This document shows positions 5,274 through 22,445 of a DNA stretch of 64,000 bases, one piece after another. The DNA lies in NCBI RefSeq assembly GCF_030816965.1, contig NZ_JAUSYQ010000002.1, positions 3,877,001-3,941,000 of the forward strand, read 5' to 3'. Made by a program: the position numbers and the translations under genes. Below the pieces are notes generated by a model. That model was not told where the DNA came from and searched no databases. It saw nothing but the letters and a program-made list of their open reading frames with translations. This stretch comes from Streptomyces canus (GTDB lineage Bacteria > Actinomycetota > Actinomycetes > Streptomycetales > Streptomycetaceae). The stretch's first letter is position 1. Each line of letters opens with the position of its first letter.

Positions 5274-5583
5274 ACCTCACGCCTCCTCGGACAGGGCCGC
5301 CCGCACGATAAGGGCCGGGCCTTCAAGTCACCAGTGCCGAACGCCTCGTAGAGCGGGCGGAGCGGTCGACGGGAGTCGGCGGGGAGTCGGCGGAGCGGTC
5401 ACGGGAGCCGGCGGAGGGGTCGGCGCGTCCGGCATACCGAACTTCCTCCACAGGTTTTAGGAAGGGCTGTCAGAACTCTCGACAACCCCACTGGCCACAC
5501 CCGATGCTTCCTCGTGGCATGAACGGGGCAGGCCACGACGCGGGTCAGAAGGCCGCGTCGATCCATCGGAGTTCGGAGTAGCC
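5274..5583. other. Intergenic region between srtE and GH30 gene
   Basis: A divergent promoter region of 310 bases. It contains imperfect G-rich repeats around 5350-5420 (recurring GGCGGAGCGGTC and GGGAGTCGGCGG) and a ribosome site, TCGGAGTTCGGAG, for the downstream gene. I see no gene and no clear promoter hexamers. Confidence 0.4.
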
Positions 5584-7056
5584 ATGATCCGACGCAGAAC
5601 GCTGCTGACAGCCGCAGGAGGCACCCTCCTCGGCAGCGCGCTGGCCACCGGTACCGCCCGCGCGGACGCCACGATCGCGGTCAGCCCGGGGACGTCGTAC
5701 GGCACCTGGGAGGGCTGGGGCACCTCCTTGGCCTGGTGGGCCAACGTGTTCGGCGCCCGGGACGACTTCGCCGACATCTTCTTCACCACCAAGTCGACGT
5801 CCTACAACGGCACCACGCTCCCCGGCCTCGGCCTCAACATCGCCCGCTACAACCTGGGCGCGTCCAGCTGGAACACGGTGAACGGCTCGTCGATGGTCGC
5901 GTCACCGAACATCCCCGCCTTCAAGCAGATCGAGGGCTACTGGCAGGACTGGAACAACGAGGACCCGACGTCCTCGGCGTGGGACTGGACGGCCGACGCC
6001 AACCAGCGGGCGATGCTGGTGAAGGCGACGTCGAGGGGCGCGACCTCGGAGCTCTTCGCGAACTCCCCGATGTGGTGGATGTGCAGCAACCACAACCCCT
6101 CGGGCGCCTCGGGCGGCGGCAACAACCTCCAGACCTGGAACTACCGCCAGCACGCCTCCCACCTGGCGGCCACGGCCCTGTACGCCAAGAACAACTGGGG
6201 CGTGAACTTCTCGACGGTCGACGCCTTCAACGAGCCCTCCTCGTCCTGGTGGACGGCGACCGGCACGCAGGAGGGATGCCACATGGACGCGACGGTCCAG
6301 TCGGCCGTACTGCCGTACCTGCGCAGCGAGTTGAACAACCGCGGCCTGACCGGCGTGAAGATCTCGGCCTCCGACGAGACGAGTTACGACCTCGCCCGCA
6401 CCACCTGGAACTCCTTCAGCTCGACGACGAAGGGGTACGTCAACCAGGTCAACGTGCACGGCTACCAGGGCTCGAGCGGCCGCAGGGACCTCCTGTACAC
6501 GGACGTCGTGACCACGGCCGGCAAGAAGCTGTGGAACTCCGAGACCGGCGACAGCGACGGCACCGGCTACACCATGGCCTTCAACCTCCTCTACGACTTC
6601 CGCTGGCTGCACCCCACGGCCTGGGTCTACTGGCAGGTCATGGACCCGTCGACGGGCTGGGCGATGATCGCGTACGACCAGAACACCCTCCAGCCGACCG
6701 CGGTCCAGACGAAGTACTACGTCATGGCCCAGTTCGCCCGGCACATCCGCCCCGGGATGAAGATCATCGACACGGGCGTGAGCAACGCGGTCGCGGCCTA
6801 CGACTCCTCGGCCAAGCGCCTGGTCATCGTGGCCCTGAACACCTCCACGTCGGCCCAGACCCTGACCTTCGACCTGTCCCGCTTCACGACGGTCACGGGC
6901 GGCTCCGGCGGCCTGGTCCCGCGCTGGAACACGGTGACGACGGGCGGCGACAAGTACGTGTCGTACTCCAACACGTTCCTGAGCGGAAAGTCGGTGGCGG
7001 TGCCGTTCGCGGCCAAGGCCGTGCAGACGCTCCAGATCGACGGCGTGACGATCTGA
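5584..7056 (+). CDS. Secreted GH30-family glycoside hydrolase (endo-beta-1,6-galactanase-like)
   Basis: A 490-residue exported glycosidase. The N-terminus is a Tat-type signal (MIRRRTLLTAAG, cleavage near ARA-DA at about 27). The catalytic (beta/alpha)8 barrel resembles GH30 enzymes: an N-terminal WEGWGTSLAWWA strand, the acid/base Glu217 in DAFNEPSSSWW and the nucleophile Glu320 in LWNSETGD. After about residue 400 comes the small beta domain that flanks the barrel in GH30. The pattern is closest to beta-1,6-galactanases, so plant arabinogalactan side chains are a plausible substrate, but that specificity is inferred. GGAG lies 6 bases before the ATG. It appears monocistronic. Confidence 0.87.
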   Translation: MIRRRTLLTAAGGTLLGSALATGTARADATIAVSPGTSYGTWEGWGTSLAWWANVFGARDDFADIFFTTKSTSYNGTTLPGLGLNIARYNLGASSWNTVNGSSMVASPNIPAFKQIEGYWQDWNNEDPTSSAWDWTADANQRAMLVKATSRGATSELFANSPMWWMCSNHNPSGASGGGNNLQTWNYRQHASHLAATALYAKNNWGVNFSTVDAFNEPSSSWWTATGTQEGCHMDATVQSAVLPYLRSELNNRGLTGVKISASDETSYDLARTTWNSFSSTTKGYVNQVNVHGYQGSSGRRDLLYTDVVTTAGKKLWNSETGDSDGTGYTMAFNLLYDFRWLHPTAWVYWQVMDPSTGWAMIAYDQNTLQPTAVQTKYYVMAQFARHIRPGMKIIDTGVSNAVAAYDSSAKRLVIVALNTSTSAQTLTFDLSRFTTVTGGSGGLVPRWNTVTTGGDKYVSYSNTFLSGKSVAVPFAAKAVQTLQIDGVTI

Positions 7057-7157
7057 GGCCGGGGGTGCGGGCCGGGCCCCGGGCTCTTCTCCTGTTAACC
7101 GGGCCCTGGCCTGCACCTCCCTCTTCTTTGCCACTGATCGGCAGTACGGTGTCACCC

Positions 7158-8168
7158 ATGCGCCCCGACACGCCTGCCGAGAACGTCGACCACAACGCCG
7201 AAGCGGCGCGCCTGGAGCGGACCGCCGACCGGTATCCCGAGGACGCCGAAGCCCTGCTCCTGCAGGCCGCGGCCCATCTGGAACTGGCCGGCGACCGCCC
7301 CGCCGCGTCCTCCCTCTACGACCGGTTGCTGTCCTCGTCCCAGGGCCTGGAGAACCCCCATCTGGTACGAGCCCTCAAGGCCGCGAACCTCTGGGAGTAC
7401 GGCCATGAGGCCGAGGCCCGCGCGATCATCGAGGGCGTCCGTGTGGCGTCACCCCGGGACCCGGCCCCCTGGGTGATCGTCGCGGAGGCCCTGGAGTCCC
7501 ACGACGAGCTGGAGCAGGCGCAGGAGACGTTCACGGAGGGGGCCAGGGTGCTCCTGACGGACGTGGCGGAGCCGCCGTACTCCACGCATCCGCTGCTCTT
7601 CGGCCGCCACCGCGTCCGCCGCATGCTGGGCCTGGCCCACGACGACTGGGACCTCCTGGCGGACACCGTCAACTCCTCCCCGGTCTCCCTGGACGAGCTG
7701 CACGACCCGAAGCGCGTCTGGTCGCTCGGCTCGGAGAACCCGGCGGAGCTGGAGGCGGAGATCTCCCGCCTGCGCGCCGAACTCGGCACGTTCAGGGAGG
7801 CGCTGTCCCGCCCTTTCCCGGTGGCGGTGCTGCACTGGCCCGCGTCGGAGCTGTCCGAGCTGGTGAGCGGGTATCCCTCGCTGGCGTCGGAGTACCCCTC
7901 CCACGAGGAGCACCTGGCGACGATAGAGGCGTCCCTGCGCGAGCTGTCCGCCTCCGGCACGGCGAACCTGGGCATCGTGACGGGGACGGTCCCGTCGTAC
8001 GAGGCCTTCGCGGCGTCGGAGGGCATGTCCCCGGCGGAGATCTCACTGCTCCCCCAGTACGCGACGACCCTGGCGGCACGGGGCCGCGCGGTGGAGTGGC
8101 CGCCGCAACGGGGGACGGCGTGCTGGTGCGGGTCGGGGCGGGTTTATGGGGAGTGCCACGGCGAGTGA
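7158..8168 (+). CDS. TPR-like protein with C-terminal SEC-C zinc motif
   Basis: A 336-residue soluble protein. Residues about 10-160 form helical, TPR-like repeats (ADRYPEDAEALLLQAAAHLE, then similar helices). The last 15 residues carry the SEC-C metal-binding motif CWCGSGRVYGECHG, known from the SecA tail and from many stand-alone proteins. The function of this family is not established; SEC-C can bind zinc and ribosomes or SecB-like partners. The ATG at 7158 follows a short gap after the GH30 gene, and a perfect terminator hairpin lies directly behind the stop. Confidence 0.8.
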   Translation: MRPDTPAENVDHNAEAARLERTADRYPEDAEALLLQAAAHLELAGDRPAASSLYDRLLSSSQGLENPHLVRALKAANLWEYGHEAEARAIIEGVRVASPRDPAPWVIVAEALESHDELEQAQETFTEGARVLLTDVAEPPYSTHPLLFGRHRVRRMLGLAHDDWDLLADTVNSSPVSLDELHDPKRVWSLGSENPAELEAEISRLRAELGTFREALSRPFPVAVLHWPASELSELVSGYPSLASEYPSHEEHLATIEASLRELSASGTANLGIVTGTVPSYEAFAASEGMSPAEISLLPQYATTLAARGRAVEWPPQRGTACWCGSGRVYGECHGE

Positions 8169-11420: not shown

Positions 11421-12046
11421 GGTGATCGTTCCTTGTCCTTCTCATCGTTGAGGAATGGCGGCGGATCAGACGTCGAGGGGGAAGTGGTGGAGCGGGCCGG
11501 GCGCTCGGCAGGCAGGTCGAGAGCGAGTCGGTGCGCTGTTCGCGCTCCCGGGCGCTGTGCCAGGGTCAGACGTCGCAGACGAGTGCTGTACGGGTAGATC
11601 CCCGGGCGGACCGGACTTCGGACTGAGCGGTGCACCGGGGCGGATCAGTTCGGCGCCCTTGCCGATCCGAACGCAGCAGCCGAGGTCGTCGGGGTCTTGG
11701 TGCACGGGTTTCAAAGCGAGTGAGCAACTGGCGGACCCCGCTCGCACGGTTGAGGTCAGGCCGGCCCGGCACGTTGCTCGAGTCGGTGCTCAGACCCCTC
11801 GGCATCCCGCACATCGCCGATCATTGCGTTGCTACGGTCCGGCATCGCCGACTCTCATGCTCCCTTTGCCGGCGTGCTCCTGTACCTACGTCGGGCTGCG
11901 CCACGGCGTTCCGGCCACGTGCGTGTTGATTCCGGGGGTGCACAGGGCAATCGCCTTTCACATGTTCGAAATCTCGCCAACTGTTCGGAAGTTGGCGTGA
12001 CAGTAAGCGGCCGTGTACGGGGTGTCAACGGGGCGAACTGGAACGG
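11421..12046. other. Long intergenic region upstream of the sugar-binding gene
   Basis: About 625 bases. The first part must contain the promoter of the minus-strand binding-protein gene. Short open frames exist on both strands but none has family features, good ribosome sites or conserved-looking content. Around 11960-12070 the sequence is noticeably richer in A and T than its flanks, suggesting a junction of foreign or decayed DNA. Confidence 0.4.
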
Positions 12047-12355
12047 TTACAGAAAGATGTTTGAAACTGCTTTCGGCCTCCACGCGGAGCAGAGGGGGCG
12101 AGGCGCCTGGGCGGGACAGGCAGTTGTCGAGGAGGGGGTGAGGCGGGTGTAGAGGTCGTCATGGGTGGACATGGCGTCGAGGCCGGCCCAGGTCTCGTTG
12201 TCGATGAGGAGGAACGGGAACTGCTGGGGCGTGATGAGTGCGGCCAGGAGTGGCAGGAGTTCCCATCCGTGGTCGAGGCGGTCGCGTAGCCAGGTGCGGA
12301 TGCCGGCGGGGTCGGTGTGCGCCACATCCAGATCAGCAGCCTCACCAGCCCCCAC
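12047..12355 (-). pseudogene. Probable gene remnant of unknown family
   Basis: A 102-codon frame whose middle reads like a real protein (DPAGIRTWLRDRLDHGWELL, then LITPQQFPFLLIDNETWAGL and STHDDLYTRL), while both ends look random. No start codon with a ribosome site precedes the protein-like part, and the tail dissolves into an A+T-richer segment. I do not recognise the family. The most likely reading is a truncated gene, but a short intact gene cannot be excluded. Confidence 0.35.
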
Positions 12356-12502
12356 CTGCGAGCCGCTCCGGCGACGACGGCTTCCCTGCCGACCAGCCGC
12401 TGGGACTGCTGACCACTATCGGAAATCCGAGCCTCGGCGGAAAAGACAGCCGTAGTGGGTACGCAGCCCCTTCCTGCCAGCCCCTTGGCCCTGCTCGGCG
12501 AT

Positions 12503-13117
12503 CTATCGGCCGCCCACCTGTGCTGCAAACGGCTCGGCATGCGTCGGCACTGAGGCCACCAACGCGATCCACGACCCGTCCGCGAACACCAGCTCGAAGC
12601 GGCCGCGCTGGAGTACACCCTTGGGGTTGGCCCGGACTCCGAGGGCAGTGGAGCGCGGAGCCTCCCACTGCGGCTCGAACACCTGACTGGTCTGCCAGAG
12701 TTTTGCGCGGTCCGCCAGTACGAGCACCCGACGGTCGGTGAACGCGACCACCAGCGTCGAGGCGGGCGCGGCGCTGTAGTGCGTCACCAGGAACTGCCCG
12801 GCCTGGCTCTCCCATCCGCCATGCATACCCTTGCCGTGAGCTGCCTGCGTGAGGGCGTTGTCGACAGCCAGCTCGGCACCTTCCATCCTCCGTTCCACCC
12901 GCCCGACGGGCTTTGGTTCACTCGGCCGCAGGAACCTCTGTACCGCCCCGGGGAGGCGGGACTTGATCCGTCGCTCCAGTTCCGACTCCTGCGGTGGCTG
13001 TCTCAACCAGACCGGCCGCTCAGGTACCCCGGGAGCCATGTAGCACTTGCAGCCTGCGATCAGCCGCTCCCCGGCCTGGAGGTGCGGCTGGACCTGGTCG
13101 CGGCAGTCGTCGTTCAT
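12503..13117 (-). CDS. Hypothetical protein linked to type VII secretion-like genes
   Basis: A 204-residue soluble protein of unknown function. The N-terminal half is charged and includes ELERRIKSRLPGAVQRFLRP. The C-terminal half (STLVVAFTDRRVLVLADRAK, then RGRFELVFADGSWIALVAS) has the strand pattern of PH-like or bPH domains, which is an inference. The start at 13117 (MNDDCRDQVQPHLQ) was chosen because upstream sequence reads as the tail of the preceding gene in another frame. It is the last gene of a three-gene minus-strand set, 28 bases behind the WXG100-containing protein. Confidence 0.6.
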   Translation of the reverse strand: MNDDCRDQVQPHLQAGERLIAGCKCYMAPGVPERPVWLRQPPQESELERRIKSRLPGAVQRFLRPSEPKPVGRVERRMEGAELAVDNALTQAAHGKGMHGGWESQAGQFLVTHYSAAPASTLVVAFTDRRVLVLADRAKLWQTSQVFEPQWEAPRSTALGVRANPKGVLQRGRFELVFADGSWIALVASVPTHAEPFAAQVGGR

Positions 13118-13145
13118 TCCCGTGTCTCTCTGATCGGACGAGTCG

Positions 13146-14093
13146 TCAGCCGAACGGATTGTCCCGGAACCGGGGTTCCACCGTCTGGTGATCGTGATCT
13201 GACGGGTTGGCGATGCCGAGGTCCTCACGAGCCGCCGTGCTGGGATTACGGTTCCCCGCCAGCCGGTCGTCGGCTTCGTCGGCGCCGATGCCCATGGCGC
13301 CTTGCATGCCTTCCTGATGTGTCTGCCCGACAGGGTCACCTGTGAGGCCGACCGCGCCGAGTGCCGCCTTTCCCGTGGTCTTCACGACCCGATGAGCGAC
13401 GAAGGCTCGAAGCCCGTCGGGGGTCTGCAAGTCGCCGACGTGCTTCCAAGTCCACGGCTTGGCCGTACTGAACCTGTTCGTCTTGGCGAGCACGCTGAGC
13501 GCCCTCATGCGCTCCGCGATCTTCTCCAAGGCTCTGGCGAGCCGTGCCACCAGGCTCGCGATCCGGGTGGCGGCCAAGGAGCCCTCAGCGGCGGCCGCGG
13601 CGGCACCGGCGGCCGCGGAAACACCCGCGGTCAGCGCGGCGAAGGCGGCGGAAGCAGCGAGAGTGATCAGCGCCCATTCGATCAGCTCGCGGATGACCGT
13701 CTCGACCATCTCCTGGACCACGCGGCACTCTTCGGCCGCTTCCCGGAGCAGCTCGGCCGTTCCCTCCATGTCCGCGGCCTCGGCCTCGAACTCCGCTTCC
13801 AGGTCGATGAGTTCGTCGAAAAAGGCGTCCGCTGCCTCACCGGACCATTCATGAGCGAGATCTGCGCGATCACGACGCTGGTCGGCCAGGAGATCGCGGA
13901 GTTCACCAGCCTGCTTGGCCCACAGATCAGCAGCGTTCTGGAGGCCTTCGGGGTCGCCGGTGACGAATTCGAGCTGCTCGGCCAGCGGTTCCACCACCGG
14001 GCGCATCAGCTCGTCCAGCAGCCCGCTGAGCGGACTCATCCAGTCGTTGACCTTGCCGTAGGCATCGACCGCCGCACCTGCCGGCCCGCTCAC
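13146..14093 (-). CDS. WXG100-domain protein, putative type VII secretion substrate
   Basis: A 315-residue protein. Residues about 45-125 form a helical hairpin with HEWSGEAADAFFDEL, which is the WXG motif at the turn, as in ESAT-6-like and related type VII secretion substrates. Residues about 135-175 are Ala/Gly-rich and hydrophobic and could cross a membrane. The C-terminal 100 residues (KPWTWKHVGDLQTPDGLRAF onwards) are unlike known toxin domains that I recognise. The GTG start overlaps the stop of the upstream gene (GTGA). No Ecc secretion machinery is encoded in the window. Confidence 0.7.
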   Translation of the reverse strand: MSGPAGAAVDAYGKVNDWMSPLSGLLDELMRPVVEPLAEQLEFVTGDPEGLQNAADLWAKQAGELRDLLADQRRDRADLAHEWSGEAADAFFDELIDLEAEFEAEAADMEGTAELLREAAEECRVVQEMVETVIRELIEWALITLAASAAFAALTAGVSAAAGAAAAAAEGSLAATRIASLVARLARALEKIAERMRALSVLAKTNRFSTAKPWTWKHVGDLQTPDGLRAFVAHRVVKTTGKAALGAVGLTGDPVGQTHQEGMQGAMGIGADEADDRLAGNRNPSTAAREDLGIANPSDHDHQTVEPRFRDNPFG

Positions 14094-14422
14094 ATCGTCC
14101 CCCGAGCCTGGGCCGCGATGCTACGGACCTGGTCCACCGTGTGGTCCTCCACCGCCTGGTACGAGCGGCCGGTCCGCTCGATGAACTCGGCGATCTGCTC
14201 CTGCTGTCCTACGGCGAAGTCGAGATTCTCCAGCGTGGCGTCGACACGCTCGCGGTAGTCCTGACCAGTCTCCTCGGACTCCGGGAGCTTGCCGAAAGCG
14301 TTCGCACTGGGAGAGTGCGCGCCCAGCGCCTCCTGGATCCGCCGCAGCCGATCAGCGCGGTCCTGCGCAGTCCTTGAGAATCGGGTCAGTGCGTCCTGAG
14401 TGACCGCATACTGTGACGCCAT
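14090..14422 (-). CDS. ESX-type small helical protein, putative type VII secretion partner
   Basis: A 110-residue, all-helical protein. Two long helices flank a loop with AFGKLPESEE, as in EspC/ESAT-6-like secretion substrates, although the strict WXG is replaced. MASQYAVTQDALTRF begins at 14422 behind GGGGG at about 5 bases; a longer reading to 14503 is less likely. Translation of the next gene starts inside its stop codon, so the two products are probably made in similar amounts and may form the usual heterodimer. This pairing is an inference. Confidence 0.68.
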   Translation of the reverse strand: MASQYAVTQDALTRFSRTAQDRADRLRRIQEALGAHSPSANAFGKLPESEETGQDYRERVDATLENLDFAVGQQEQIAEFIERTGRSYQAVEDHTVDQVRSIAAQARGTM

Positions 14423-15058
14423 GCATCCCCCGTGCAGCGCGTTGTGTTGGTCAAGATTCTCAAAATTCCTAGCACAAGGCCGCCTTGGAGCCAACAGGGC
14501 CATCCTTCAAAAGCCAGGCGGGACAGCTTGACCGCGCCAAAACGACCTTGGTTCCTCAAAGTCTGGTTGAGCTGCCACATCGTTCACGCCTGGGCCCCAG
14601 CTCCGCCCTCACCCTGGACTGGCAGCGCTGAAAGATCTCAGCCGCCGAGCGTCAAACCGAGGAGCTCGCGGCGGGACTGCCGAGCGAGGGGCGACCGTTG
14701 CATCCTGGCCAACATCAGAGCACTTCGCGCCGAACGAAATCGACGCGTCGATGACGCACGAGCCGATCACAACTATCAAATAAACATACAAAAAGGACAT
14801 TATTTACGCCATAGGTCGCGAGATCGTCACACCCCGCTCCTATGACCCTGCGGCCCTTGAGGAATGATGCCGGACTCGACTGCGCACAGGACCTTGGAGT
14901 CCTGCGGTCGAGCTTCGCAGCCCATCGCCGCAGGGAGTGCGTCACCTTAAACTGGCTGATCCCAGAGCAAGAAGCCTACCCGTATGGGTAATGTCCCCGA
15001 CAAAGGCGCTCTGTGCACCAACTCACGCCAACGCCAATCCACAGCAGAGGAACAGACT
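14423..15058. other. Border region with an A+T-rich patch upstream of the restriction island
   Basis: About 630 bases without a convincing gene. Positions 14765-14815 are strikingly A+T-rich (runs such as AAATAAACATACAAAAAGG), unlike the surrounding genome, and mark the left edge of lower G+C DNA that continues through about 18.1 kb. Short open frames occur on both strands but show no family features. The region should hold the promoter of the NaeI-type gene. No integrase, direct repeat or tRNA is visible at this edge. Confidence 0.5.
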
Positions 15059-16024
15059 GTGCTCCCCCTGGACGACATCGCAGCCGCGATCAACATCAGC
15101 GCCCAGTCTGCCCTTCAACACGATCCTGCACTGATTGCCGTCCGTGATCACATTTGTCGACTCGACCCCACCGGCAGACGTTTCTCTGTGGTCCTGCGCG
15201 ACACAATCGACCAGTTGCTCAACGGTGAAGTTACGGGCAGATTTGACTGGAAAACCCTTTTTAAAACAGAAAAAACTCACGCTGGAACCCTCGTAGAAAT
15301 TAACCTGCAGCGCGAGTTCAAATTCAGTGACGGTATTGATATGGACTACCGGATAGCGGGCGTCGATGTTGATTGTAAATATTCTCAGCAGTTCGGCGGC
15401 TGGATGATTCCTCCCGAAGCGATCGGACATCTGTGCTTGCTGGTGTGGGCAGACGATTCTAAGGGCCTCTGGAGCGCAGGACTGCTCCGCATACGCCGCG
15501 AATGGCTCAATGGCGGAAATAACCGCGACTTGAAACTCACAATCAAAGCCGAGCACCGCAGCAAGATATTCTGGCTTTGGCGTGATGCAGTGCTACCTGA
15601 AAACGTCTTGCTTCACATGGATCCAAAAGATCGGGATCGCGTCTTCTCGCATAAATCCGGACAGGCGCGGCTCAACGAGCTATTTCGCCTGGTTCAGTCC
15701 CGGCGCATTGGGCGCAACGTCGTACGTACCGTCGCCCAACAGAAAGACTACATGAAGCGCGTGCGAGGCAACGGCGGCGCCCGGTCCGCGCTCCAGCGTG
15801 AAGGAATCATAATCATGGGGGATTATGCCAGCCACCAGGAAATCGCAGCCAAACTGCAGGTACCCGTGCCTGAGGAAGGAGAATTTGTTAGCGTACGTGT
15901 AGTCAAAGCTGGTCCTGGTGACGATTCCCAGCCACAAGTGAACCTCGATGGCGGATGGTGGAAGCCCGCAGGCCCTGGCGACCCGCATGAATGGGGGCCT
16001 TTGCTTCCGAAGCACACCGTCTAA
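15059..16024 (+). CDS. NaeI-family type II restriction endonuclease
   Basis: A homolog of NaeI, the two-site type IIE enzyme that cuts GCC^GGC. From an ATG at 14984 the frame has 346 residues; the GTG at 15059 gives 321, closer to NaeI (317), and has AGAGGAA 7 bases upstream, so I prefer it. In the 346-residue numbering the nuclease residues align without gaps to NaeI: Glu105 (E70), Asp121 (D86), Asp130 and Lys132 (D95, K97) in VDVDCKYS. Leu78 matches NaeI Leu43, whose change to Lys is known to turn NaeI into a topoisomerase. The effector (topo) domain follows, with VAQQKDYMKRVRGNGGARS near-identical to NaeI. The recalled NaeI alignment is from memory. First gene of a four-gene set ending in vsr. 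Confidence 0.93.
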   Translation: MLPLDDIAAAINISAQSALQHDPALIAVRDHICRLDPTGRRFSVVLRDTIDQLLNGEVTGRFDWKTLFKTEKTHAGTLVEINLQREFKFSDGIDMDYRIAGVDVDCKYSQQFGGWMIPPEAIGHLCLLVWADDSKGLWSAGLLRIRREWLNGGNNRDLKLTIKAEHRSKIFWLWRDAVLPENVLLHMDPKDRDRVFSHKSGQARLNELFRLVQSRRIGRNVVRTVAQQKDYMKRVRGNGGARSALQREGIIIMGDYASHQEIAAKLQVPVPEEGEFVSVRVVKAGPGDDSQPQVNLDGGWWKPAGPGDPHEWGPLLPKHTV

Positions 16025-16066
16025 CACTGATCAATCGAATACACCTATCAGCAAGGGAGCTAGCGG

Positions 16067-17455
16067 GTGAAAGGCCCGGAGGGCGAGCTGCCACTGATCA
16101 GGCAGTACAAGGACTGGCTACAGGGGAATCCAGCCGAAGACAGCCCGGACCGACCAGAATTCTTCACGCACGGGATTGTCGTACTCGACACGAACGTCCT
16201 TCTCAGTCTGTACGAGTACACACCCTCGGCTCGCGAGCAAGTCCTCAACGCACTCAAGAGCGTACAGAAGCGTCTCTGGCTCCCCCATCAGGTCGGTCTT
16301 GAGTTCGTGCGCGGTCGCCATCGAGTGATTGCCGAGAGAGCGAAGGCGCTCAAAGACGCTCCTAATACCCTCAACCGCCGATTGGGAGAAGCCAACAAGG
16401 CAATCATAGGGGCGAGGGAATTTGTTCAGGAGCTCTTGATCAAATATGCGCGTGACACAGAAACCAGTGAGATCCTGGCATCTAAAATCTCAAGCCAAGC
16501 GGTCGATATGCTGTTGGACGACTGGAAAAAGGAACTCATAGCTCTCGTGAAGGGCCTAAAGCAGCACGACCTTGCGCCGTCCTCTATGGATGCCAACGAT
16601 CCCGTGCTCCCTCGGGTTGCGGAGCTGTTTGGATCCAACATAGCTGAGGCCCCCGATCCCGCAGAGATCCGGGTCCGCGTGGATGAGGCATCTTCGTACA
16701 GGTTCCCAAATCAGATTCCTCCAGGTTTCTTCGATGCAGGAAAGACTACTCCGCTGTCCGCTGCTGGAGATTATCTCCTCTGGGAAGAGGTTGTCCGCTT
16801 CATTGCAGCCTCATCTGATCGAGACCGGCTTCTCTTCGTTTCCCGTGATACGAAAGAAGACTGGTATGAACCCGAGGAGCTCGGCCGAGGTCGACGCCCC
16901 TGGCCGTCACTAGCGAGCGAGCTAAGGGCGCGTGCGGGAGCAGAACTTCGTATTGAAACTCCGGGCCAGTTTTATCGCGGCGTGAATCGTTTCCTGGACG
17001 CAGAAATTGCTGCCGAGACGTACGAAGAGATCGACCGAGCAGCCGAGAATGCGGAAGAGATCATCGTCACCGAACGGGAGGCAGCACACACTGAGCCGCC
17101 CACCGACCTGACGCTGTCTGCGTACAGGGCCGCTGGCTTGCATATTCCGCCATTTCCCAACTCTTTTCCAAATATATTGAGCTGGTGGCTGATCGGAGTG
17201 ACTGCACAACTGGGGCGCCGACCGCCCCTTGACGGCGAGCCACGAGTATCAGTAGCTGTCGCTACTCGTTCAGCACTTCCGCCTGCCCCCGAATGGCTTC
17301 CAGGAAACTGTCTCCGACTCGGCGAATGGCCGTTTCAGAGCTCATCTTGGATTGCACCATGGTTTGCTCAAGTCGTCAATAGCACGCCCCCGGCTGACAG
17401 GCGCATTCTCCAGCGCCTCGCCGCACAACAGCTAGACGTAACGGATTCTGAATAG
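16067..17455 (+). CDS. PIN-like domain protein (DUF4935/PIN_8 type)
   Basis: A 462-residue protein whose N-terminal 270 residues form a PIN-like nuclease domain. The four acidic positions expected for metal-dependent RNA or DNA cleavage are present: Asp41 in VVLDTNVLLSLYEY, Glu79 in QVGLEFVRGRH, Asp235 in AGDYLLWEEV and Asp261 in FVSRDTKEDWY. A long helical insert (about 85-170) is typical of the PIN_8 family. The C-terminal third has no recognised domain. The GTG start has AAGGGAG at 8 bases. It sits 42 bases behind the NaeI-type gene and 41 before the next, so it is probably cotranscribed. Its role in a restriction cluster is unknown. Confidence 0.85.
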   Translation: MKGPEGELPLIRQYKDWLQGNPAEDSPDRPEFFTHGIVVLDTNVLLSLYEYTPSAREQVLNALKSVQKRLWLPHQVGLEFVRGRHRVIAERAKALKDAPNTLNRRLGEANKAIIGAREFVQELLIKYARDTETSEILASKISSQAVDMLLDDWKKELIALVKGLKQHDLAPSSMDANDPVLPRVAELFGSNIAEAPDPAEIRVRVDEASSYRFPNQIPPGFFDAGKTTPLSAAGDYLLWEEVVRFIAASSDRDRLLFVSRDTKEDWYEPEELGRGRRPWPSLASELRARAGAELRIETPGQFYRGVNRFLDAEIAAETYEEIDRAAENAEEIIVTEREAAHTEPPTDLTLSAYRAAGLHIPPFPNSFPNILSWWLIGVTAQLGRRPPLDGEPRVSVAVATRSALPPAPEWLPGNCLRLGEWPFQSSSWIAPWFAQVVNSTPPADRRILQRLAAQQLDVTDSE

Positions 17456-17496
17456 CCTCCCACGAAAATCGCTATGTTTGCCGAACGGAGAATCAT

Positions 17497-18093
17497 ATGC
17501 CCGACCAGGCCCCTTTCGAGGGCGAGTGGAAAAATCTCAAATCCGACGCCGAGCACGCTCTCCAAACGCTGCTTTCCCAGATTAACAGGCACACGAATCC
17601 TCAGGAGCTATTCGAAGCGTACACTTACGCCAAGCGAGTGACGGCAGATGCCTTGAAATCTCGGATGCTCATGCATCTTCCGGCGGAGAATTCCAAGTTC
17701 CGGGAACTGTATGCAAAGGTACAGAAAGAGCTTAACGTCCAATACGGGGAGTTTTTCCCTGACGGCTTCCTTAAGGCACCCTACGGGAATCAATTGCACG
17801 AGCGCCTGTTCTCCCTGCTTGAGGAGAATTTTTCACAACCGATAGAAGCGGCAAAGCTCCGTATCGTCACCGCCGACGGAGTCCACACGGAACGACGCAC
17901 GCGCGAGCTGAGGGAACTCGGAATGGATGTGGATTGGTACGAAGAAGACGGCCTTGACTTTTACGTACTACGGTCTTTCGATTTGAACTTCGAAGTGCTT
18001 CCTTCACTAGTCAGGACCATTGTGAGAAATAAAAGGAAGTCCAAGGCCGAAAGGGAGCGGCTCCTAAGAAATGCAGGAATCCCAGTAAAATGA
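17497..18093 (+). CDS. Unrecognised protein with winged-helix-like C-terminus in restriction cluster
   Basis: A 198-residue protein. The N-terminal 115 residues are helical and charged, without a family I recognise. Residues about 116-165 (IEAAKLRIVTADGVHTERRT, then RELRELGMDVDWYEEDG and FYVLRS) resemble the small winged-helix module found attached to HNH and other restriction enzymes, where it helps read DNA. The tail is basic (RNKRKSKAERERLLRNAG). GGAGA lies 6 bases before the ATG, and the stop overlaps the start of vsr (ATGA). Codon use is A+T-rich like its two upstream neighbours. It may be a specificity, control or accessory subunit. Confidence 0.75.
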   Translation: MPDQAPFEGEWKNLKSDAEHALQTLLSQINRHTNPQELFEAYTYAKRVTADALKSRMLMHLPAENSKFRELYAKVQKELNVQYGEFFPDGFLKAPYGNQLHERLFSLLEENFSQPIEAAKLRIVTADGVHTERRTRELRELGMDVDWYEEDGLDFYVLRSFDLNFEVLPSLVRTIVRNKRKSKAERERLLRNAGIPVK

Positions 18094-18548
18094 GTAAGGA
18101 AACCGACTGGGAGCCACCGCAAGGGTCATGGGCTTCATCGGCGGCCAGGCGACGGAACATGCAGGCCATCCGCAGCCGGGACACCAAGCCGGAGCGATTG
18201 GTCCGCAGCCTGTTGCATGCTCAGGGGCTGCGTTATCGCGTGGCTGCCAAACCTCTGCCAGGCCTTCGCAGAACAGCTGACATCGTCTTCCGGCCCACGA
18301 AGCTGGCTGTGTTCATCGACGGCTGTTACTGGCACGGCTGCCCCGAGCACTATGTGCCCCCCAAAACCAATCAGGGCTACTGGTCGGACAAGGTCGCCCG
18401 GAACATGGCTCGTGACCGCGATACCGATGAGCAGCTCCTGGCCGCCGGCTGGACCGTGCTCCGGTTCTGGGAACACGATCCGGCCGAGGAATGCGCTGTG
18501 AAGATCGCCGCTACCGTCAGCCGCTTGAAGAATCCCAAGAAGGGGTGA
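18090..18548 (+). CDS. vsr: Very short patch repair endonuclease
   Basis: A 152-residue Vsr protein, which nicks next to T:G mismatches formed when 5-methylcytosine deaminates. Family motifs are clear: RNMQAIRSRDTKPE, then TADIVFRPTKLAVFIDGCYW with the catalytic Asp64, followed by HGCPEHYVPPKTNQGYW and GWTVLRFWEHD. It overlaps the preceding gene by four bases and ends 9 bases before the convergent C5 methyltransferase, its functional partner. Vsr is common beside C5 methyltransferases of restriction systems. Confidence 0.95.
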   Translation: MSKETDWEPPQGSWASSAARRRNMQAIRSRDTKPERLVRSLLHAQGLRYRVAAKPLPGLRRTADIVFRPTKLAVFIDGCYWHGCPEHYVPPKTNQGYWSDKVARNMARDRDTDEQLLAAGWTVLRFWEHDPAEECAVKIAATVSRLKNPKKG

Positions 18549-18557
18549 GGCTCCGCC

Positions 18558-19613
18558 TCAGTTCTTCTTCGCCTTCTCAGCAGCCTCGAACGCAGCGTAG
18601 ATCTGGTCACCGACAGCCTGGGCCACGGGGGGCGGGAAGGCGTTGCCGACTTGCCGGTACGCCGCTGTCTTGCGGCCGGTGAACTTCCAGTCCTTCGGGA
18701 AGCCCTGGATCAGGGCTGCTTGGGTCACGGTGAGCTTGGGACCGGCCGGCGCGAAGAGATCACGCTCCACGTCTTTGGTTTCCTCTGGCTCGTTGGCGAC
18801 CCCCATCCCGCACACACCCAGTTCGGCCCAAGCCCGCTTGGCACGCGTTGGGCCGAGGTCAGCGCCGCCATGCTTCTTCGAACCACCTACGACCGTGGGT
18901 GCCACACCTTCCAGCGCCTTCTCGTACCAGTTCTTGAAGGCCTTCTCAGCCCTGGGATCATTCGCAACTGCGTCGTACCGCTCCCTCATGGAGTCTTCGA
19001 GGGCCTCGCCTACGGTGACTACCTTGGTCTCTGCAGGCTTGTGGTGCTCAAAGTAGCGGGCGTACTCGGGCTTCATTGCGACCAAGATGGCGCGGGGACG
19101 AAGCTGTGGCACTCCGTAGTTCTTGGCCTCCAGGATGTCCCAGTAGCACTCCTCATACCCCAGGGATACGAGCTGCTTGATGATGTCCTGGCGGTACTCC
19201 ACGAACTTCGGATCAAGCAGTCCGCGTACGTTCTCGATCATCACGGCCTTGGGCTCAAGATGCTCGACGAGCTCCAACATCGTGGGGAAGAGGTCCCGTT
19301 CGTCATCCCGGCCGAGTTGCTTGCCTGCGGCCGAGAAGGGAGGGCAAGGTACTCCGCCAGCCAGAAGATCAAGCTCTCCAGACTCAAGCCCCAGGACGCC
19401 AGGGTCGAACTGCCGTAGGTCAGCTTCGATGACCTTGCAGGCTGTCCACTCCGGGTTGCCCTCAGTGTTGGCCCTGAGCGTCTCGCAGGCGTCCTTGTCG
19501 ATCTCGATCAGGGCGACATGCTTGAAGCCCGCGTTGTGCAGTCCGACGGCCTGCCCTCCGGCTCCGGCGCAGATTTCCACCGAGGTGTACTTGCGGTCCT
19601 TCGTGCGGGTCAT
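18558..19613 (-). CDS. DNA (cytosine-5-)-methyltransferase
   Basis: A 351-residue C5 methyltransferase. The motifs appear in order: I (SVEICAGAGGQAVGLHNAGF), IV with the catalytic Cys90 (GGVPCPPFSAAG), VI (MIENVRG), VIII (QLRPRAILVAM) and IX-X (QVGNAFPPPVAQAVG). The target recognition segment lies about 210-300. As the only methyltransferase here it should protect the site cut by the NaeI-type enzyme, expected to be GCCGGC; this specificity is inferred from the partner. It converges on vsr and is divergent from the HNH gene, so the modification gene has its own promoter, separate from the endonuclease operon. Confidence 0.95.
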   Translation of the reverse strand: MTRTKDRKYTSVEICAGAGGQAVGLHNAGFKHVALIEIDKDACETLRANTEGNPEWTACKVIEADLRQFDPGVLGLESGELDLLAGGVPCPPFSAAGKQLGRDDERDLFPTMLELVEHLEPKAVMIENVRGLLDPKFVEYRQDIIKQLVSLGYEECYWDILEAKNYGVPQLRPRAILVAMKPEYARYFEHHKPAETKVVTVGEALEDSMRERYDAVANDPRAEKAFKNWYEKALEGVAPTVVGGSKKHGGADLGPTRAKRAWAELGVCGMGVANEPEETKDVERDLFAPAGPKLTVTQAALIQGFPKDWKFTGRKTAAYRQVGNAFPPPVAQAVGDQIYAAFEAAEKAKKN

Positions 19614-19761
19614 GCCCCCTCCTTACGGTCGTACAGCGGCAGACGCATCTTGCTATCCACCGTCACTGAGGGTGACAGACCCCACTGACAACGAGACCTC
19701 ACCAAGTTTGCAGCACGTTCCATGGTTCGCTGAACGCACCCTGCGCTACGCCGAACACTCA

Positions 19762-19767
19762 TACGAT
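19762..19767 (+). promoter_or_regulatory. Candidate -10 element for a leaderless HNH transcript
   Basis: TACGAT at 19762-19767 lies 7 bases before the ATG at 19775, and no ribosome site precedes that ATG. This spacing would put transcription initiation at the start codon itself, as in leaderless actinobacterial mRNAs. No strong -35 element is visible. Confidence 0.45.
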
Positions 19768-19774
19768 ATTGCAC

Positions 19775-20524
19775 ATGCGGATACCTGCCTGGGCCGAGGA
19801 CGAACTTGTACTGGCCGGAGCCCTGGTCGTGAAGAACGGCTGGCGCGAGCTGCGGACCAACGACCAGGAGGTCCAGGACCTGTCGGAGCTGATCCGCTCG
19901 CTCCCGATCCACTCGCCGGAGCAGCGAGCCCTTCCGGGATTTCGGTCTCCTGGCAGCGTGAGCCGCAAGACCACCGACTTCATGTCGAACCACAGGCTGT
20001 ACTCCGGCAAGGCCACCCGCTGCGGCAAGCCCACTCTGCTCATGATTGATGCGTTTTCGACCCGAGAGGCCGAGATGCTTCAAGCCGCCGAAGCGCTTGA
20101 GGAAGGTATCTCCTCTGGGGAACTGCACCGCATCCCCGAGCAACCCGATGAAGTCGACGAGAGCGGCGCATCCGCCATCGAGGGACGCCTCCTTGTCCGC
20201 CGTGCGCTGGCCCGTGAACGAGACCCGAAGCTTCGCGCGCTGAAGATCAAACAGGTTCAGCGTCGCGGGCGTCCACTCCGGTGCGAGGTCTGCGACTTCG
20301 ACTTCGCCCGCGCCTACGGGGACTTGGGCGAGGGTTATATCGAAGTGCATCACGTCACTCCCCTTTACGTCTCCGGGACACGGGAGACCAAGCTCGACGA
20401 CCTCGCATGCGTGTGCGCCAATTGCCACCGCATGTGCCACAGGAGCCGCCCCGGAGAATCCTGGCGCACGCCGGCCGCCCTCCGGGAGCAGATACGGAAG
20501 TCCGCTCAGAGTGCCTGCCACTAG
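19775..20524 (+). CDS. McrA-type HNH endonuclease
   Basis: A 249-residue nuclease. The N-terminal module (WAEDELVLAGALVV, SELIRSLPIHSPEQR, FRSPGSVSRKTTDF) is the DNA-binding region commonly joined to McrA-like HNH enzymes that cut modified DNA. The C-terminal HNH has the zinc cysteines CEVC and CANCH and the catalytic IEVHHVTPLY (His pair at about 192-193). Such enzymes often restrict methylated or phosphorothioated DNA, which is curious beside a C5 methyltransferase. The TTG at 19769 is an alternative start; ATG 19775 fits a leaderless message. Its TAG stop overlaps the opposite-strand TAG of the HATPase gene within CTAG (20521-20524). Confidence 0.88.
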   Translation: MRIPAWAEDELVLAGALVVKNGWRELRTNDQEVQDLSELIRSLPIHSPEQRALPGFRSPGSVSRKTTDFMSNHRLYSGKATRCGKPTLLMIDAFSTREAEMLQAAEALEEGISSGELHRIPEQPDEVDESGASAIEGRLLVRRALARERDPKLRALKIKQVQRRGRPLRCEVCDFDFARAYGDLGEGYIEVHHVTPLYVSGTRETKLDDLACVCANCHRMCHRSRPGESWRTPAALREQIRKSAQSACH

Positions 20525-21153
20525 GCTGCGTCCGCTTCAGCCTCGTAGTGCACCTGAGCGCGGTCGAGCATGTCGTCCGGATCATGGCCACGGGCGGCGG
20601 TCCAGTGAAGGAGGTCCGCGATCAGCTCGATCGCTGACTCCTCCAGAGCCCTATCCCGCCTCCCTCCGCACAGACCAAGGCCACCGATGCGTCCCTGGTA
20701 TCGCTCAAGCGCCTCAACGGCCCGCTCGATGCGTCGGCATGCCTGTCCCGAGCTGATCGCGATCTCACACCAGACCGCCTTGCCGACGGCGGTCAGGACA
20801 GTTCCCCAGTCCACCGCCAGCGCCGCGAGAAGGTGCAGACCGCGGCCACACTCCTCGTCACAGCCTCCCGACTTGGATGTCGGCACCGCCTGACTTTTGT
20901 CGTGGACCTCCAGCCTCAACCGCTCTCCCCTCCGTTCAAGGATCAGAGTCGCTGAAACGCCTTCGCCTACATGTTTGAAGACGTTCGTCGCCAACTCCGT
21001 AACGAGCAGCTCTGCCTCATCCGTCGCTGTGGACACGCCCCACAGGTTCAGCTGCTTGGCAGCGGCCTTCCGGAGAAGGCGCACTTCCGCTGGTACCGCC
21101 TCGAAGGGCAGGACACAGCGGAGTTGGGGCTCGGACATCTCGTAGCCGGGCAT
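20521..21153 (-). CDS. ATP-binding anti-sigma-factor-like protein (HATPase_c)
   Basis: A 210-residue protein with a GHKL ATPase fold of the RsbW/SpoIIAB type. The N-box is seen as AELLVTELATNVFKH, and a degenerate G1/G2 region includes EVHDKS and GRGLHLLAALAVDWG. Streptomycetes have many such proteins, often beside XRE/DUF397 pairs as here. After about residue 140 it has an extra helical tail. The start at 21153 has GGGAGGGAGGAG just upstream. It is divergent from the Scr1-type regulator across a gap with palindromes, and may bind a sigma factor or the regulator; that is inferred from context. Confidence 0.85.
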   Translation of the reverse strand: MPGYEMSEPQLRCVLPFEAVPAEVRLLRKAAAKQLNLWGVSTATDEAELLVTELATNVFKHVGEGVSATLILERRGERLRLEVHDKSQAVPTSKSGGCDEECGRGLHLLAALAVDWGTVLTAVGKAVWCEIAISSGQACRRIERAVEALERYQGRIGGLGLCGGRRDRALEESAIELIADLLHWTAARGHDPDDMLDRAQVHYEAEADAA

Positions 21154-21244
21154 GGCTACTCCTCCCTCCCAAGCCACACAGATGCTGCGCCTGCCGTGTT
21201 CACACGACTGCACTGTGTAGCGGTCTGAGGGCGAGCATGGCACA

Positions 21245-21276
21245 GAGAAGTCTCACTGTGTAACTTCTCATGAGAA
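21245..21276. promoter_or_regulatory. Palindromes in the HATPase/XRE divergent gap
   Basis: GAGAAGT (21245-21251) and ACTTCTC (21263-21269) form a perfect inverted repeat with an 11-base spacer. Overlapping it is a perfect 12-base palindrome, TTCTCATGAGAA (21265-21276). They lie in the 218-base divergent promoter gap and are candidate operators for the XRE protein. Confidence 0.5.
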
Positions 21277-21371
21277 CCCATCGGGTGAATCTGATGGTGG
21301 GTCCGGCTGCTCCCTGCCTAGCCTGATGGGATCTCCGGGCCTGACGACCCGGTACTTGGCGGAGGAGCCAC

Positions 21372-22217
21372 ATGCCTGAACGCACCACAACCCGGCGTCG
21401 TCAACTAGGCGCGACGATGCGCAAGTTGCGCGCCCGCAAGGGCCTGACGCTTGAGGAGGCCGGAAAACTCGTCGGAGTTTCCAAGGCAACGGTGAGCAGG
21501 TACGAAACCCAGGCCGGACCGGTCAAGTGGATCGTCGTCGATGCACTTTGCCGCGAGTACGGGGCAACCGACGCCGAGCGTGCGGCCATTGTCAGGCTTG
21601 CCAAGGACGCCAAGCAGCAAGGCTGGTGGAGTTCCTTCGCCGACGCCATCCCCGAGAGCATGAACCTCCTGCTCACCCTGGAAGATGAGGCGGTACACGA
21701 GAGTCACTTCGCGTGTGTCTACGTCCCTGGCCTTCTGCAAACCCGCGCCTACAGTACGGCTCTGCAGAAGGCCAACGAGGTGCCGCTGGAACCCGCGGAG
21801 ATCGAGCGGCTGGTCGACATCCGCATGAAGCGGCAGGACATCCTCTCCCGCCCGAAGCCGCCACGCCTGTGGGCCATCCTCGACGAGTCTGTGATCCGCC
21901 GTCTCGTCGGATCGTCGGCGACCATGAGGGAACAGCTCGACCGCCTGCTCGAAGCCAACGAGTCGCCTCACATAACGCTCCAGGTTTTGCCCTTCTCCAA
22001 AGGAGCCCACGCTGCCGCTCTGGGAAGCTTCGTCGTCATCGGCGGTGCCGAATCAGGCCTGGATGTCGTGTATGTCGATTTCCACACAGGCTCCCTCTTC
22101 CTGGAGAAGGACGAGGAACTGGACCGATACAGACTTGCGTTCGAGTACCTCCGCGCACAAGCGTTGGACATGGAAGCCTCCTCCGCCATGATCCATCGCG
22201 TCCGCAAGGAGCTGTGA
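21372..22217 (+). CDS. XRE-family regulator with Scr1/DUF5753 domain
   Basis: A 281-residue regulator. The helix-turn-helix is at about 12-50 (RKLRARKGLTLEEAGKLVGV, then SKATVSRYET). Residues about 95-275 are the DUF5753 domain typical of Scr1-like proteins (VPGLLQTRAYSTAL, RMKRQDIL, LWAILDESVIRRLVG, LQVLPFSKGAHAA). Such proteins are encoded directly before small DUF397 proteins, with which they form regulatory, toxin-antitoxin-like pairs in streptomycetes. The stop TGA is immediately followed by the ATG of the DUF397 gene. Confidence 0.93.
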   Translation: MPERTTTRRRQLGATMRKLRARKGLTLEEAGKLVGVSKATVSRYETQAGPVKWIVVDALCREYGATDAERAAIVRLAKDAKQQGWWSSFADAIPESMNLLLTLEDEAVHESHFACVYVPGLLQTRAYSTALQKANEVPLEPAEIERLVDIRMKRQDILSRPKPPRLWAILDESVIRRLVGSSATMREQLDRLLEANESPHITLQVLPFSKGAHAAALGSFVVIGGAESGLDVVYVDFHTGSLFLEKDEELDRYRLAFEYLRAQALDMEASSAMIHRVRKEL

Positions 22218-22445
22218 ATGCCCGTCGGCCCTCAAACCACCTCCGAGCCTGCCTGGTTCAAGTCGTCGTACAGCGGCGGCAACGCGACCGAATGCGTCGA
22301 AGCCGCGTTCGTCCCCTCCGGGGTACTCATACGGGACTCGAAGCGCCCACAGCATCGGCACCTCACAGTGTCAGCACTGTCCTGGGCCGAGTTCCTGACG
22401 AGCAGCATCTTGCAGCAATCAGCGATCAACTCCGAACCGACCTGA
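22218..22445 (+). CDS. DUF397 domain protein
   Basis: A 75-residue acidic protein with the family pattern W-x-KSSYSGGNATECVEAA, then VLIRDSKRP and WAEFL. It starts directly at the stop codon of the Scr1-type regulator, so translation is coupled. Known family members bind and modulate their cognate XRE partner in developmental control; the same is likely here. Confidence 0.93.
   Translation: MPVGPQTTSEPAWFKSSYSGGNATECVEAAFVPSGVLIRDSKRPQHRHLTVSALSWAEFLTSSILQQSAINSEPT

Follow-up and report, generated by a model that had tools for sequence, protein, structure and literature searches.

A PIN nuclease and a putative winged-helix partner in a NaeI-type restriction island of Streptomyces canus as a candidate portable effector module

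In the usual description, a restriction system consists of a methyltransferase and its own endonuclease; NaeI, a type IIE enzyme, has the recognition site GCCGGC. In VapBC toxin-antitoxin systems, the PIN toxin is normally a small protein of a single domain, encoded directly downstream of a small antitoxin. According to Iyer et al. (2008, PMC2292703), MORC and paraMORC restriction systems combine GHKL ATPases and superfamily II helicases with Mrr, a C5-methyltransferase, and Vsr; the portions of that paper considered here name no PIN nuclease. Type IV Druantia (DruE, DruF, and DruL) is defined without DruM, and the consulted part of the PADLOC description names no PIN protein for it (PMC8565338). 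In the PrrC/RloC guard systems, according to the sections used of PMC3710099, a second nuclease is embedded in a restriction operon, as in the present locus; that nuclease is of the HEPN type, whereas a PIN nuclease and a winged-helix partner are found in a type II system here.

The locus lies in a 64,000-nucleotide stretch of the S. canus genome, which was analysed as a whole (hereafter, the window). Its features are as follows.

5441..8162, no strand: left flank of the defence hotspot, common to L002, L003, and L004 (blastn)
15059..16024, + strand: NaeI-type (type IIE) restriction endonuclease, 321 aa, GTG start (Pfam NaeI PF09126, E 4e-125)
16067..17455, + strand: PIN_8 nuclease, 462 aa (Pfam PF18476, 2.8e-50)
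17497..18093, + strand: C protein, 198 aa, with a helical N-terminal part and a predicted winged helix-turn-helix at about 99-160 (AlphaFold2 model)
18090..18548, + strand: Vsr mismatch/very-short-patch endonuclease (TIGR00632, 9.3e-41; Pfam, 2.7e-22)
18542..18560, + strand: terminator-like stem-loop closing the NaeI-PIN-C-Vsr operon
18558..19613, - strand: C5-cytosine DNA methyltransferase, presumed cognate (Pfam DNA_methylase, 6.5e-66), convergent with the operon
19775..20524, + strand: HNH nuclease, McrA type (Pfam HNH, 2.8e-6), divergent from the methyltransferase
20765..22344, no strand: right flank of the defence hotspot, common to L002, L003, L004, and L005 (blastn)

All six reading frames were uninterrupted at these coordinates, and the six genes named in a sequence-only reading of this DNA were confirmed. 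The ATGA overlap that joins C to Vsr was exact as given there, and so were the intergenic distances of 42 and 41 bases. ATG 14984 is an alternative possible start of NaeI, and the HNH gene more likely starts at ATG 19775 than at TTG 19769. Scanning of 14000-21500 detected no terminator-like stem-loop between the NaeI-PIN-C-Vsr genes on the + strand; the terminator signal is a weak one, since six such sites were found on both strands of this region vs 5.0 expected. Loci of four other Streptomyces (L002-L005) show the same arrangement, NaeI-PIN-C-Vsr facing a methyltransferase; there PIN follows NaeI after 41-68 bases and C follows PIN after 32-50 bases. Because it recurs in these loci, the layout is not due to chance.

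The window NaeI aligned with the solved NaeI structure 1ev7 at E 9.9e-92, and the stretches VEIN, DY, and VDCK were kept; E70, D86, D95, and K97 are the catalytic residues of NaeI. The methyltransferase matched DruM2 best among the PADLOC models (6.5e-127), followed by a type II methyltransferase model (2.5e-102). It was the top C5-methyltransferase match of its genome, the other four reaching at most 66.3 bits. The HNH protein matched the PADLOC type IV methyl-directed class (3e-8) and the solved McrA 6ghc (3.9e-6). The island resembles a NaeI type IIE restriction-modification system in combining endonuclease, C5-methyltransferase, and Vsr, and differs from it (solved structures 1ev7/1iaw) in that PIN and C lie inside the operon. 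No description of a PIN protein in a NaeI system was found in one open-licence literature library, in line with what the earlier reading had supposed for type IIE systems, and the literature matches to PF18476/PIN_8, among those listed, concerned plant auxin topics. The locus also differs from a VapBC-type pair: its PIN protein is a two-part protein of 462 aa, and the upstream gene encodes NaeI.

The PIN domain spans residues ~37-280 and is followed by a C-terminal part of unknown fold. D41, E79, D235, and D261 were identical in 40/40 PIN homologs, among twelve invariant acids; matched by position, they presumably correspond to the classical PIN tetrad. We propose that the protein is a metal-dependent nuclease. 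Pfam searches up to E 1 gave PIN_8, PIN_12, and PIN only, with no HEPN domain. A Foldseek comparison of the PIN model with the PDB yielded nothing that passed E 0.001 (best 0.46), and the best hit of the PIN profile among solved structures had E 0.4. One genome (G175, locus L057) encodes a natural PIN-NaeI fusion whose NaeI domain is apparently dead. A NaeI-like identity of the C-terminal part of ordinary PIN proteins was rejected, as the hhalign probability was only 0.2-0.3%.

The C protein has no Pfam family (best E 0.075); nor did the 40 aligned homologs agree on any family, at most 6/40 sharing a match (best E 0.0053), and the best E of the C profile against solved structures was 0.036. 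Its AlphaFold2 model had a mean pLDDT of 91.6. The predicted topology (helices 118-125 and 131-140, strands 144-150 and 153-160) is helix-helix-hairpin with a basic recognition helix, and R133, R134, R136, and R139 were invariant in the 40 homologs, which also kept the block TERR.RELRELG. In addition, L060 and L077 encode HNH nucleases that adjoin Vsr-methyltransferase(-NaeI) and carry tandem winged helices, and the C profile matched these helices (genome E 2.3e-4 and 8.6e-6). C is probably a DNA-binding protein and a putative stand-alone relative of the HNH-linked winged-helix repeats in related islands. Control proteins are frequent in restriction systems, and the predicted winged helix would also suit a transcription regulator of the operon, with PIN as an unrelated, co-inherited nuclease. 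We consider this explanation improbable: the closest domain relatives found for C are nuclease-linked winged helices, C follows PIN or a helicase and never heads the operon in the annotated loci, and, as described below, it accompanies PIN across three chassis.

The company of the two genes was surveyed in the ~10 kb around 21 distinct full-length C loci; 13 loci were found with two peptide patterns, and 120 of 134 C matches and 120 of 271 PIN matches were listed. Of the 120 listed PIN rows, 51 have the length of one of 121 C contigs, an indirect match that carries no weight here. L054 and L072 (contigs as long as those of L007 and L006), the short copies L044 to L048 of loci covered in longer form, the C fragments of L058 and L059 beside DruE and a C5-methyltransferase, the weak C-like domains in HNH proteins of L060 and L077, and L053 and L083 (PIN without C) were left out, and L007, L008, L012, L014, and L052 have a short flank on one side. 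A C5-methyltransferase was present in 20 loci, PIN in 17, and Vsr in 15; the background in one genome is five C5-methyltransferase matches in 10.66 Mb, or ~1% of 20-kb windows. The GHKL ATPase with Mrr-helicase was found in nine loci, NaeI in seven (five of them as one operon with PIN-C), HNH homologs in seven, DruE in six, and NgoMIV in two. HNH homologs also occur in L078, a NaeI locus without PIN-C. Four of the 21 loci have two of NaeI, GHKL with Mrr-helicase, and DruE, and three have none; since all loci were found through C, how often these chassis lack C cannot be read from them.

The sequence-only reading had tied the two passengers to NaeI, and here the survey does not support it: by the refuting condition set in that reading, a NaeI-type gene is missing from the ~10 kb around 14/21 C loci. 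As most C loci are without NaeI, PIN and C are not NaeI-specific. NaeI-type genes were present in 65 of 297 sampled family genomes, but the NaeI-PIN-C operon in the window genome only. In another genome (G027), NaeI lies next to a complete PIN-GHKL-helicase-C set. The GHKL subfamily scoring above 1590 bits was found in 3/297 genomes, with PIN and C beside it in 3/3. Distances between PIN proteins were correlated with those between the C proteins (r 0.86 in 16 loci; 0.84 in the 11 outside the NaeI clade), which argues against a role of C as the operon's regulator, whereas r for PIN and the methyltransferase was 0.47 and 0.16, respectively.

Nine C loci resemble paraMORC systems: each encodes a GHKL ATPase, an Mrr-bearing superfamily II helicase, and a C5-methyltransferase, and five of them Vsr as well. 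The window, in contrast, lacks the ATPase and the helicase: the profile of the PIN-C-linked GHKL subfamily matched nothing in the window, this subfamily had no match at E 1e-30 in the window genome, and the Mrr-helicase profile had no match within the window. The six C loci near DruE recall type IV Druantia; DruF and DruL occur in L075, DruL in L074, and DruF in L053. DruE gave only two matches of at most 30 bits in the window genome, both in one frame ~1.75 Mb away. A DruE or close GHKL ATPase acting from elsewhere in the genome was rejected, as neither had an adequate match.

The absence of both, together with the C fragments adjoining DruE in L058 and L059, would suit PIN and C as a non-functional relic of a GHKL-helicase or Druantia island whose other genes were lost. 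Nevertheless, dN/dS was ~0.06-0.08 for PIN and C (window-L002 and window-L003), like NaeI and the methyltransferase, which indicates purifying selection on both genes here, and the frames are intact with similar spacing in five species. A relic is thus highly improbable. Instead, the low dN/dS, the same gene order in five loci, and the putative catalytic acids kept in 40/40 PIN homologs bear out the earlier impression that the two passengers look like working parts.

The frequent Vsr (15/21 loci within ~10 kb, overlapping C in the window) would also suit a DNA-processing aid: PIN would join Vsr once mismatches at deaminated 5-methylcytosine have been nicked, or would process restriction-broken ends, and so protect the host instead of attacking phage. 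MutL-like GHKL ATPases in 9/21 loci would fit this, a link to mismatch repair being drawn in the consulted part of PMC2292703. On the other hand, Vsr directly follows NaeI without PIN-C elsewhere (e.g. L022, L030, and L032), so that it does not need the pair, and no Vsr match lies near 6/21 C loci. We regard this role as decidedly improbable.

The first three genes are A+T-rich, as had been noticed from the 22 G+C in 15241-15300. The G+C content of NaeI-PIN-C was 55.4%, vs a mean of 69.5% (sd 2.0; minimum 65.0%) in equal-length window stretches outside the island. NaeI, PIN, and C had 58%, 56%, and 50% G+C in L003 and 63%, 61%, and 57% in L005. Low G+C is thus common to the relatives to a varying degree and marks the gene set; as proof of recent transfer into this strain it was rejected. 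The composition had earlier been read as a pointer to joint transfer of the three genes, which the AU test did not support (33 rows; L042, L060, and L074 left out): a single clade of the five carriers of PIN-C was rejected in the NaeI tree (p-AU 1.1e-6), whereas these form one clade in the PIN tree and in the C tree. By this sequence-based test, NaeI and the PIN-C pair have different histories.

The search of plasmids yielded 57 PIN records, none covering >80% of the query and all with <60% identity, and no C. Sixteen PIN loci were found in viral contigs; 15 encode far proteins, and L083, which lies beside DruE, belongs to the restriction clade. None of 18 pattern matches to C there was confirmed. 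The far PIN_8 proteins share the Pfam domain and scored 133-166 bits against the family profile, vs >400 for the restriction-linked clade. They differ in having no restriction-island marker beside them: none of eight other markers was near 11 far loci (L061-L071; 11 of 17 far matches examined).

The occurrence of PIN-C relatives as add-ons in several different defence systems suggests a reusable weapon module. We tentatively propose, with somewhat less than an even chance of being right, that PIN-C is a portable two-protein effector module, in which C reads DNA and PIN cuts, and that it is added to restriction and similar defence systems whose common mark is a C5-methyltransferase, in many cases together with Vsr. 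With just under an even chance, it would be a previously unrecognised module of type II (NaeI, NgoMIV), paraMORC-helicase, and Druantia-like systems, a split restriction nuclease with separate reader and cutter in which PIN does the cutting; in the natural PIN-NaeI fusion, PIN would then borrow a dead restriction domain to find its target. The chassis would be the NaeI endonuclease-methyltransferase here, and the GHKL ATPase with Mrr-helicase or the Druantia-like DruE elsewhere. NaeI would make the first cuts in unmethylated DNA, C would then bind the invading DNA at unmodified sites or cut products and bring or activate PIN, and PIN would cut further, destroying surviving or repaired phage DNA. 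Co-location, PIN-C co-variation, purifying selection, conserved acids, the predicted winged helix, and the PIN-NaeI fusion are the sequence side of this model; we infer that C binds DNA and recruits PIN, that DNA is the substrate, and the order of events. The earlier reading had suggested a backup effector or abortive infection module, of which the backup effector part stands as one of two leading models.

Alternatively, PIN may be an RNase silenced by C or the restriction-modification proteins and freed when a phage inhibits the system or methylation fails, stopping translation like PrrC with type I systems. RNase effectors freed upon neutralisation of restriction systems were proposed for HEPN proteins in the consulted part of PMC3710099, NaeI-like and PIN domains are alternative effectors in other conflict systems according to that of PMC7159879, and the occurrence of PIN with three different chassis is expected of a generic effector. 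We nevertheless judge a guard rather unlikely: the winged helix predicted for C, like those of HNH nuclease repeats, speaks for DNA, L057 has PIN and a NaeI domain in one protein, and in L053 and L083 no C, the sole candidate for a silencer, was found with PIN.

If PIN-C is a split restriction nuclease, a PIN nuclease enters restriction as a cutting enzyme, and the PIN_8 proteins of the restriction clade and the Pfam-less C gain a testable job. With the pair inherited together and re-used on three unlike chassis, textbook restriction, Druantia, and MORC-type systems would be seen to exchange effectors. The simpler NaeI strain makes testable what the MORC-like and Druantia helicases need downstream.

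The island comprises four co-directional genes, in the order NaeI-type endonuclease, PIN_8 protein (PIN), a 198-residue protein (C) and Vsr. Next come a C5-methyltransferase, convergent with these genes, and an HNH protein, divergent from the methyltransferase.

Genes of the island in the window
15059-16024, + strand, NaeI-type endonuclease
16067-17455, + strand, PIN, 462 aa
17497-18093, + strand, C, 198 aa, without a Pfam family, predicted winged helix
18090-18548, + strand, Vsr
18558-19613, - strand, C5-methyltransferase
19775-20524, + strand, HNH protein

A sequence-only reading had taken PIN and C as working parts of a NaeI-type island; on recheck, the intergenic gaps (42 bases before PIN, 41 before C), the ATGA at which C and Vsr overlap and the 22 G+C in 15241-15300 were all exact. 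The G+C content of NaeI-PIN-C was 55.4%, against a mean of 69.5% and a minimum of 65.0% for stretches of equal length elsewhere in the window, and low G+C was common to relatives, to varying degree. Between these four genes, no terminator-like site was detected on the coding strand; one lies at the end of NaeI-PIN-C-Vsr, and such sites were no commoner than in shuffles. NaeI matched the solved enzyme (E 9.9e-92) and kept the VDCK stretch, whose residues we take to be functional residues of the NaeI enzyme. The best PADLOC model for the methyltransferase was Druantia DruM2 (6.5e-127), although the genome is without DruE; type II methyltransferases scored lower (2.5e-102).

Homologs of C numbered 49 proteins in the first search and 134 by profile, and those bearing organism names were all actinobacterial among the matches listed (best 120 of 134 by profile). 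NaeI-PIN-C-Vsr with the facing methyltransferase recurred in four more Streptomyces loci (L002-L005), with HNH in three of them. Estimated roughly, with dS near saturation, dN/dS between the window and L002/L003 was 0.056-0.060 for PIN and 0.058-0.082 for C, similar to 0.067-0.088 for the methyltransferase and to 0.061 for NaeI against L003 (saturated against L002). The frames are intact and under selection, not debris.

The island lies within a defence hotspot adjoining an HATPase/DUF5753-HTH regulator pair. The flanks at 5441-8162 and 20765-22344 are common to L002-L004, the right one also to L005, and the same hotspot area is occupied by Druantia DruE in L004 and L005. Between the hotspot flank and NaeI, 8428-15039 (about 6.6 kb), with ORFs at 10329-11420 and 13146-14503 (both minus strand), is without counterpart in L002, where the interval is 268 bp. 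At 40177-40476, one L003 stretch matches at three adjacent sites spaced by about 100 bases, so a tandem repeat is likely.

Markers within about 10 kb were counted at 21 distinct full-length C loci (window included), mostly by profiles built from the loci in which each marker had first been identified (L006, L009, L010, L013 and those with DruF and DruL). DruF and DruL were also identified among the C/PIN loci.

Markers and the loci in which they were identified
GHKL protein, ~840 aa, HATPase_c_3 and zinc ribbons: L010, L013
Mrr-helicase, ~585 aa, Mrr_cat and ResIII/Helicase_C: L010, L013
NgoMIV: L006
DruE: L009

A C5-methyltransferase accompanied C at 20 of the 21 loci, PIN at 17, Vsr at 15 and HNH at seven. 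As to the defence gene set, or chassis, GHKL ATPase plus Mrr-helicase was present at 9/21 loci, NaeI at 7/21 (at five of them within the PIN-C operon) and DruE at 6/21; NgoMIV was present at two. Two chassis occurred together in four loci (NaeI and GHKL in L052; NaeI and DruE in L004, L005 and L074) and none in three (L008, with a contig end close by, L056 and L076). The usual gene orders were NaeI-PIN-C-Vsr, PIN-GHKL-helicase-C and DruE-PIN-C; L006 has the full GHKL set with NgoMIV adjoining C. NgoMIV cleaves GCCGGC, the same site as NaeI. As a control, the eight other markers were sought at 11 of the 17 loci with distant PIN_8 matches (133-166 bits) and were found at 0/11; as background, the 10.66 Mb of one genome contained five C5-methyltransferase matches, one of them the window's, or about 1% of 20-kb windows. 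The arrangement in the window is real, conserved and selected; the centring of the sequence-only reading on NaeI was too narrow. The stronger finding is the PIN-C pair common to NaeI, GHKL-helicase and Druantia-like islands.

Two further gene sets were noted. A gene pair of ~468 and ~610 aa lies near a C5-methyltransferase at L008 5099-8334, L073 3696-6934 and L079 1446-4697, matched in the latter two by length only; the second gene in L008 is a SNF2-type helicase. In L078 (4623-6365, minus strand, G072:C2), NaeI-type and NgoMIV-type endonucleases adjoin each other and share a single Vsr-methyltransferase-HNH set, and a gene-sized NaeI-Vsr gap in other loci (e.g. L028, L033, L035) may hold the same.

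PIN and C are not NaeI-specific: among 297 genomes of the family, a NaeI-type gene was present in 65 and the NaeI-PIN-C operon only in the window's own genome. C matched in eight (full-length in five) and PIN (E 1e-20) in 23, with 24 matches, seven above 400 bits and 17 at 83-167 bits. The GHKL subfamily of PIN-C loci (>1590 bits; next best 296) occurred in three, each of which also carries PIN and C. G027 has PIN-GHKL-helicase-C next to a NaeI-Vsr-methyltransferase set of convergent layout, G175 a PIN-NaeI fusion, and G036 NaeI adjoining an HNH protein with C-like domains. The genus sample gave C matches in 8/392 genomes (seven full-length), two of which, G000 (the window's genome) and G040, are also in the family count; the phylum sample gave 3/396, namely these two and one weak match.

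The five NaeI-linked rows formed one clade (100/100) in both the PIN tree (18 rows) and the C tree (21 rows). In both, the Druantia-linked rows except L009, together with the three chassis-less loci, formed one clade apart from the GHKL rows; L006, L009 and L010 were placed tentatively. Across 16 loci, raw pairwise distances, uncorrected for shared descent, of PIN correlated at 0.86 with those of C and at 0.47 with those of the methyltransferase, and C correlated with the methyltransferase at 0.55; across the 11 loci outside the NaeI clade, the three values were 0.84, 0.16 and 0.18. These results suggest that PIN and C travel together while the chassis changes. The NaeI tree did not unite the five carriers of PIN-C in one clade: L004 paired with L022 (96/92), at whose locus no PIN or C match was found, and forcing the carriers together cost 109 log-likelihood units (p-AU 1.1e-6). 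Hence either the pair was gained, lost or swapped between lineages of NaeI, or the NaeI gene beneath it was replaced, the tree showing at least two changes.

The pairing of PIN and C is not obligatory. PIN without C adjoins DruE in L053 and, over 11 kb of its sequence, in L083; L011-L014, two of them short contigs, have C without PIN. L083 is an IMG/VR contig of 121 kb catalogued as viral, with DruE and then a restriction-clade PIN. Between DruE and the C5-methyltransferase, L058 6643-6948 and L059 9189-9542 hold C fragments (101 and 117 aa), from which the module seems to be decaying in some Druantia islands.

One locus joins PIN to NaeI in a single frame.

L057 8660-10153, - strand, PIN-NaeI fusion of 497 aa (G175:C2)

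It combines a PIN domain (38-279) with the first, endonuclease half of NaeI, which spans 345-496 (hhalign 97.4%, E 1e-11; Pfam 5.5e-10). In the hhalign alignment, VVFK stands in place of VDCK and the glutamate of VEIN is missing, while the DY aspartate and the lysine are kept, so the NaeI part has probably lost its nuclease activity and been retained for binding. An HNH gene adjoins the fusion; the window methyltransferase profile found no C5-methyltransferase within about 9 kb, and hhalign found no NaeI similarity in the C-terminal part of ordinary PIN. Elsewhere, HNH nucleases at L060 9555-10538 (+) and L077 9557-10552 (-) contain two segments similar to the C winged helix and adjoin Vsr and a methyltransferase, in L060 also NaeI.

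We tentatively favour, at somewhat below even chances, a model in which C would read DNA and PIN would cut, the pair supplying a methylation-marked system with a second nuclease. PIN domains generally act on RNA, and this usual behaviour speaks for the chief rival, which we consider rather unlikely, that PIN is a guard RNase released once restriction is disabled; however, both the predicted winged helix of C and the PIN-NaeI fusion favour DNA. Such guarding is proposed in PMC3710099 for HEPN nucleases linked with restriction systems, with a HEPN domain there and a PIN domain here. Models of PIN-C as a regulator, a repair function or a relic receive lower weight still.

GHKL-helicase-methylase-Vsr islands were described by Iyer et al. 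2008 (PMC2292703), with the same general make-up as the GHKL-type C loci; no PIN nuclease was named for them in the part of that text available. PADLOC defines Druantia type IV by DruE, DruF and DruL (PMC8565338), and for other conflict systems NaeI-like and PIN domains are listed as alternative effectors (PMC7159879). As available, the main text of a 2025 YprA helicase preprint (PMC12458937) lacks NaeI and has one word beginning 'pin', and a paraMORC/two-component paper (PMC8011034) does not mention Streptomyces, NaeI or Druantia. Literature mostly outside subscription journals, covered largely by listings and excerpts, yielded no description of PIN inside a NaeI system and no paper mentioning both NaeI and Druantia.
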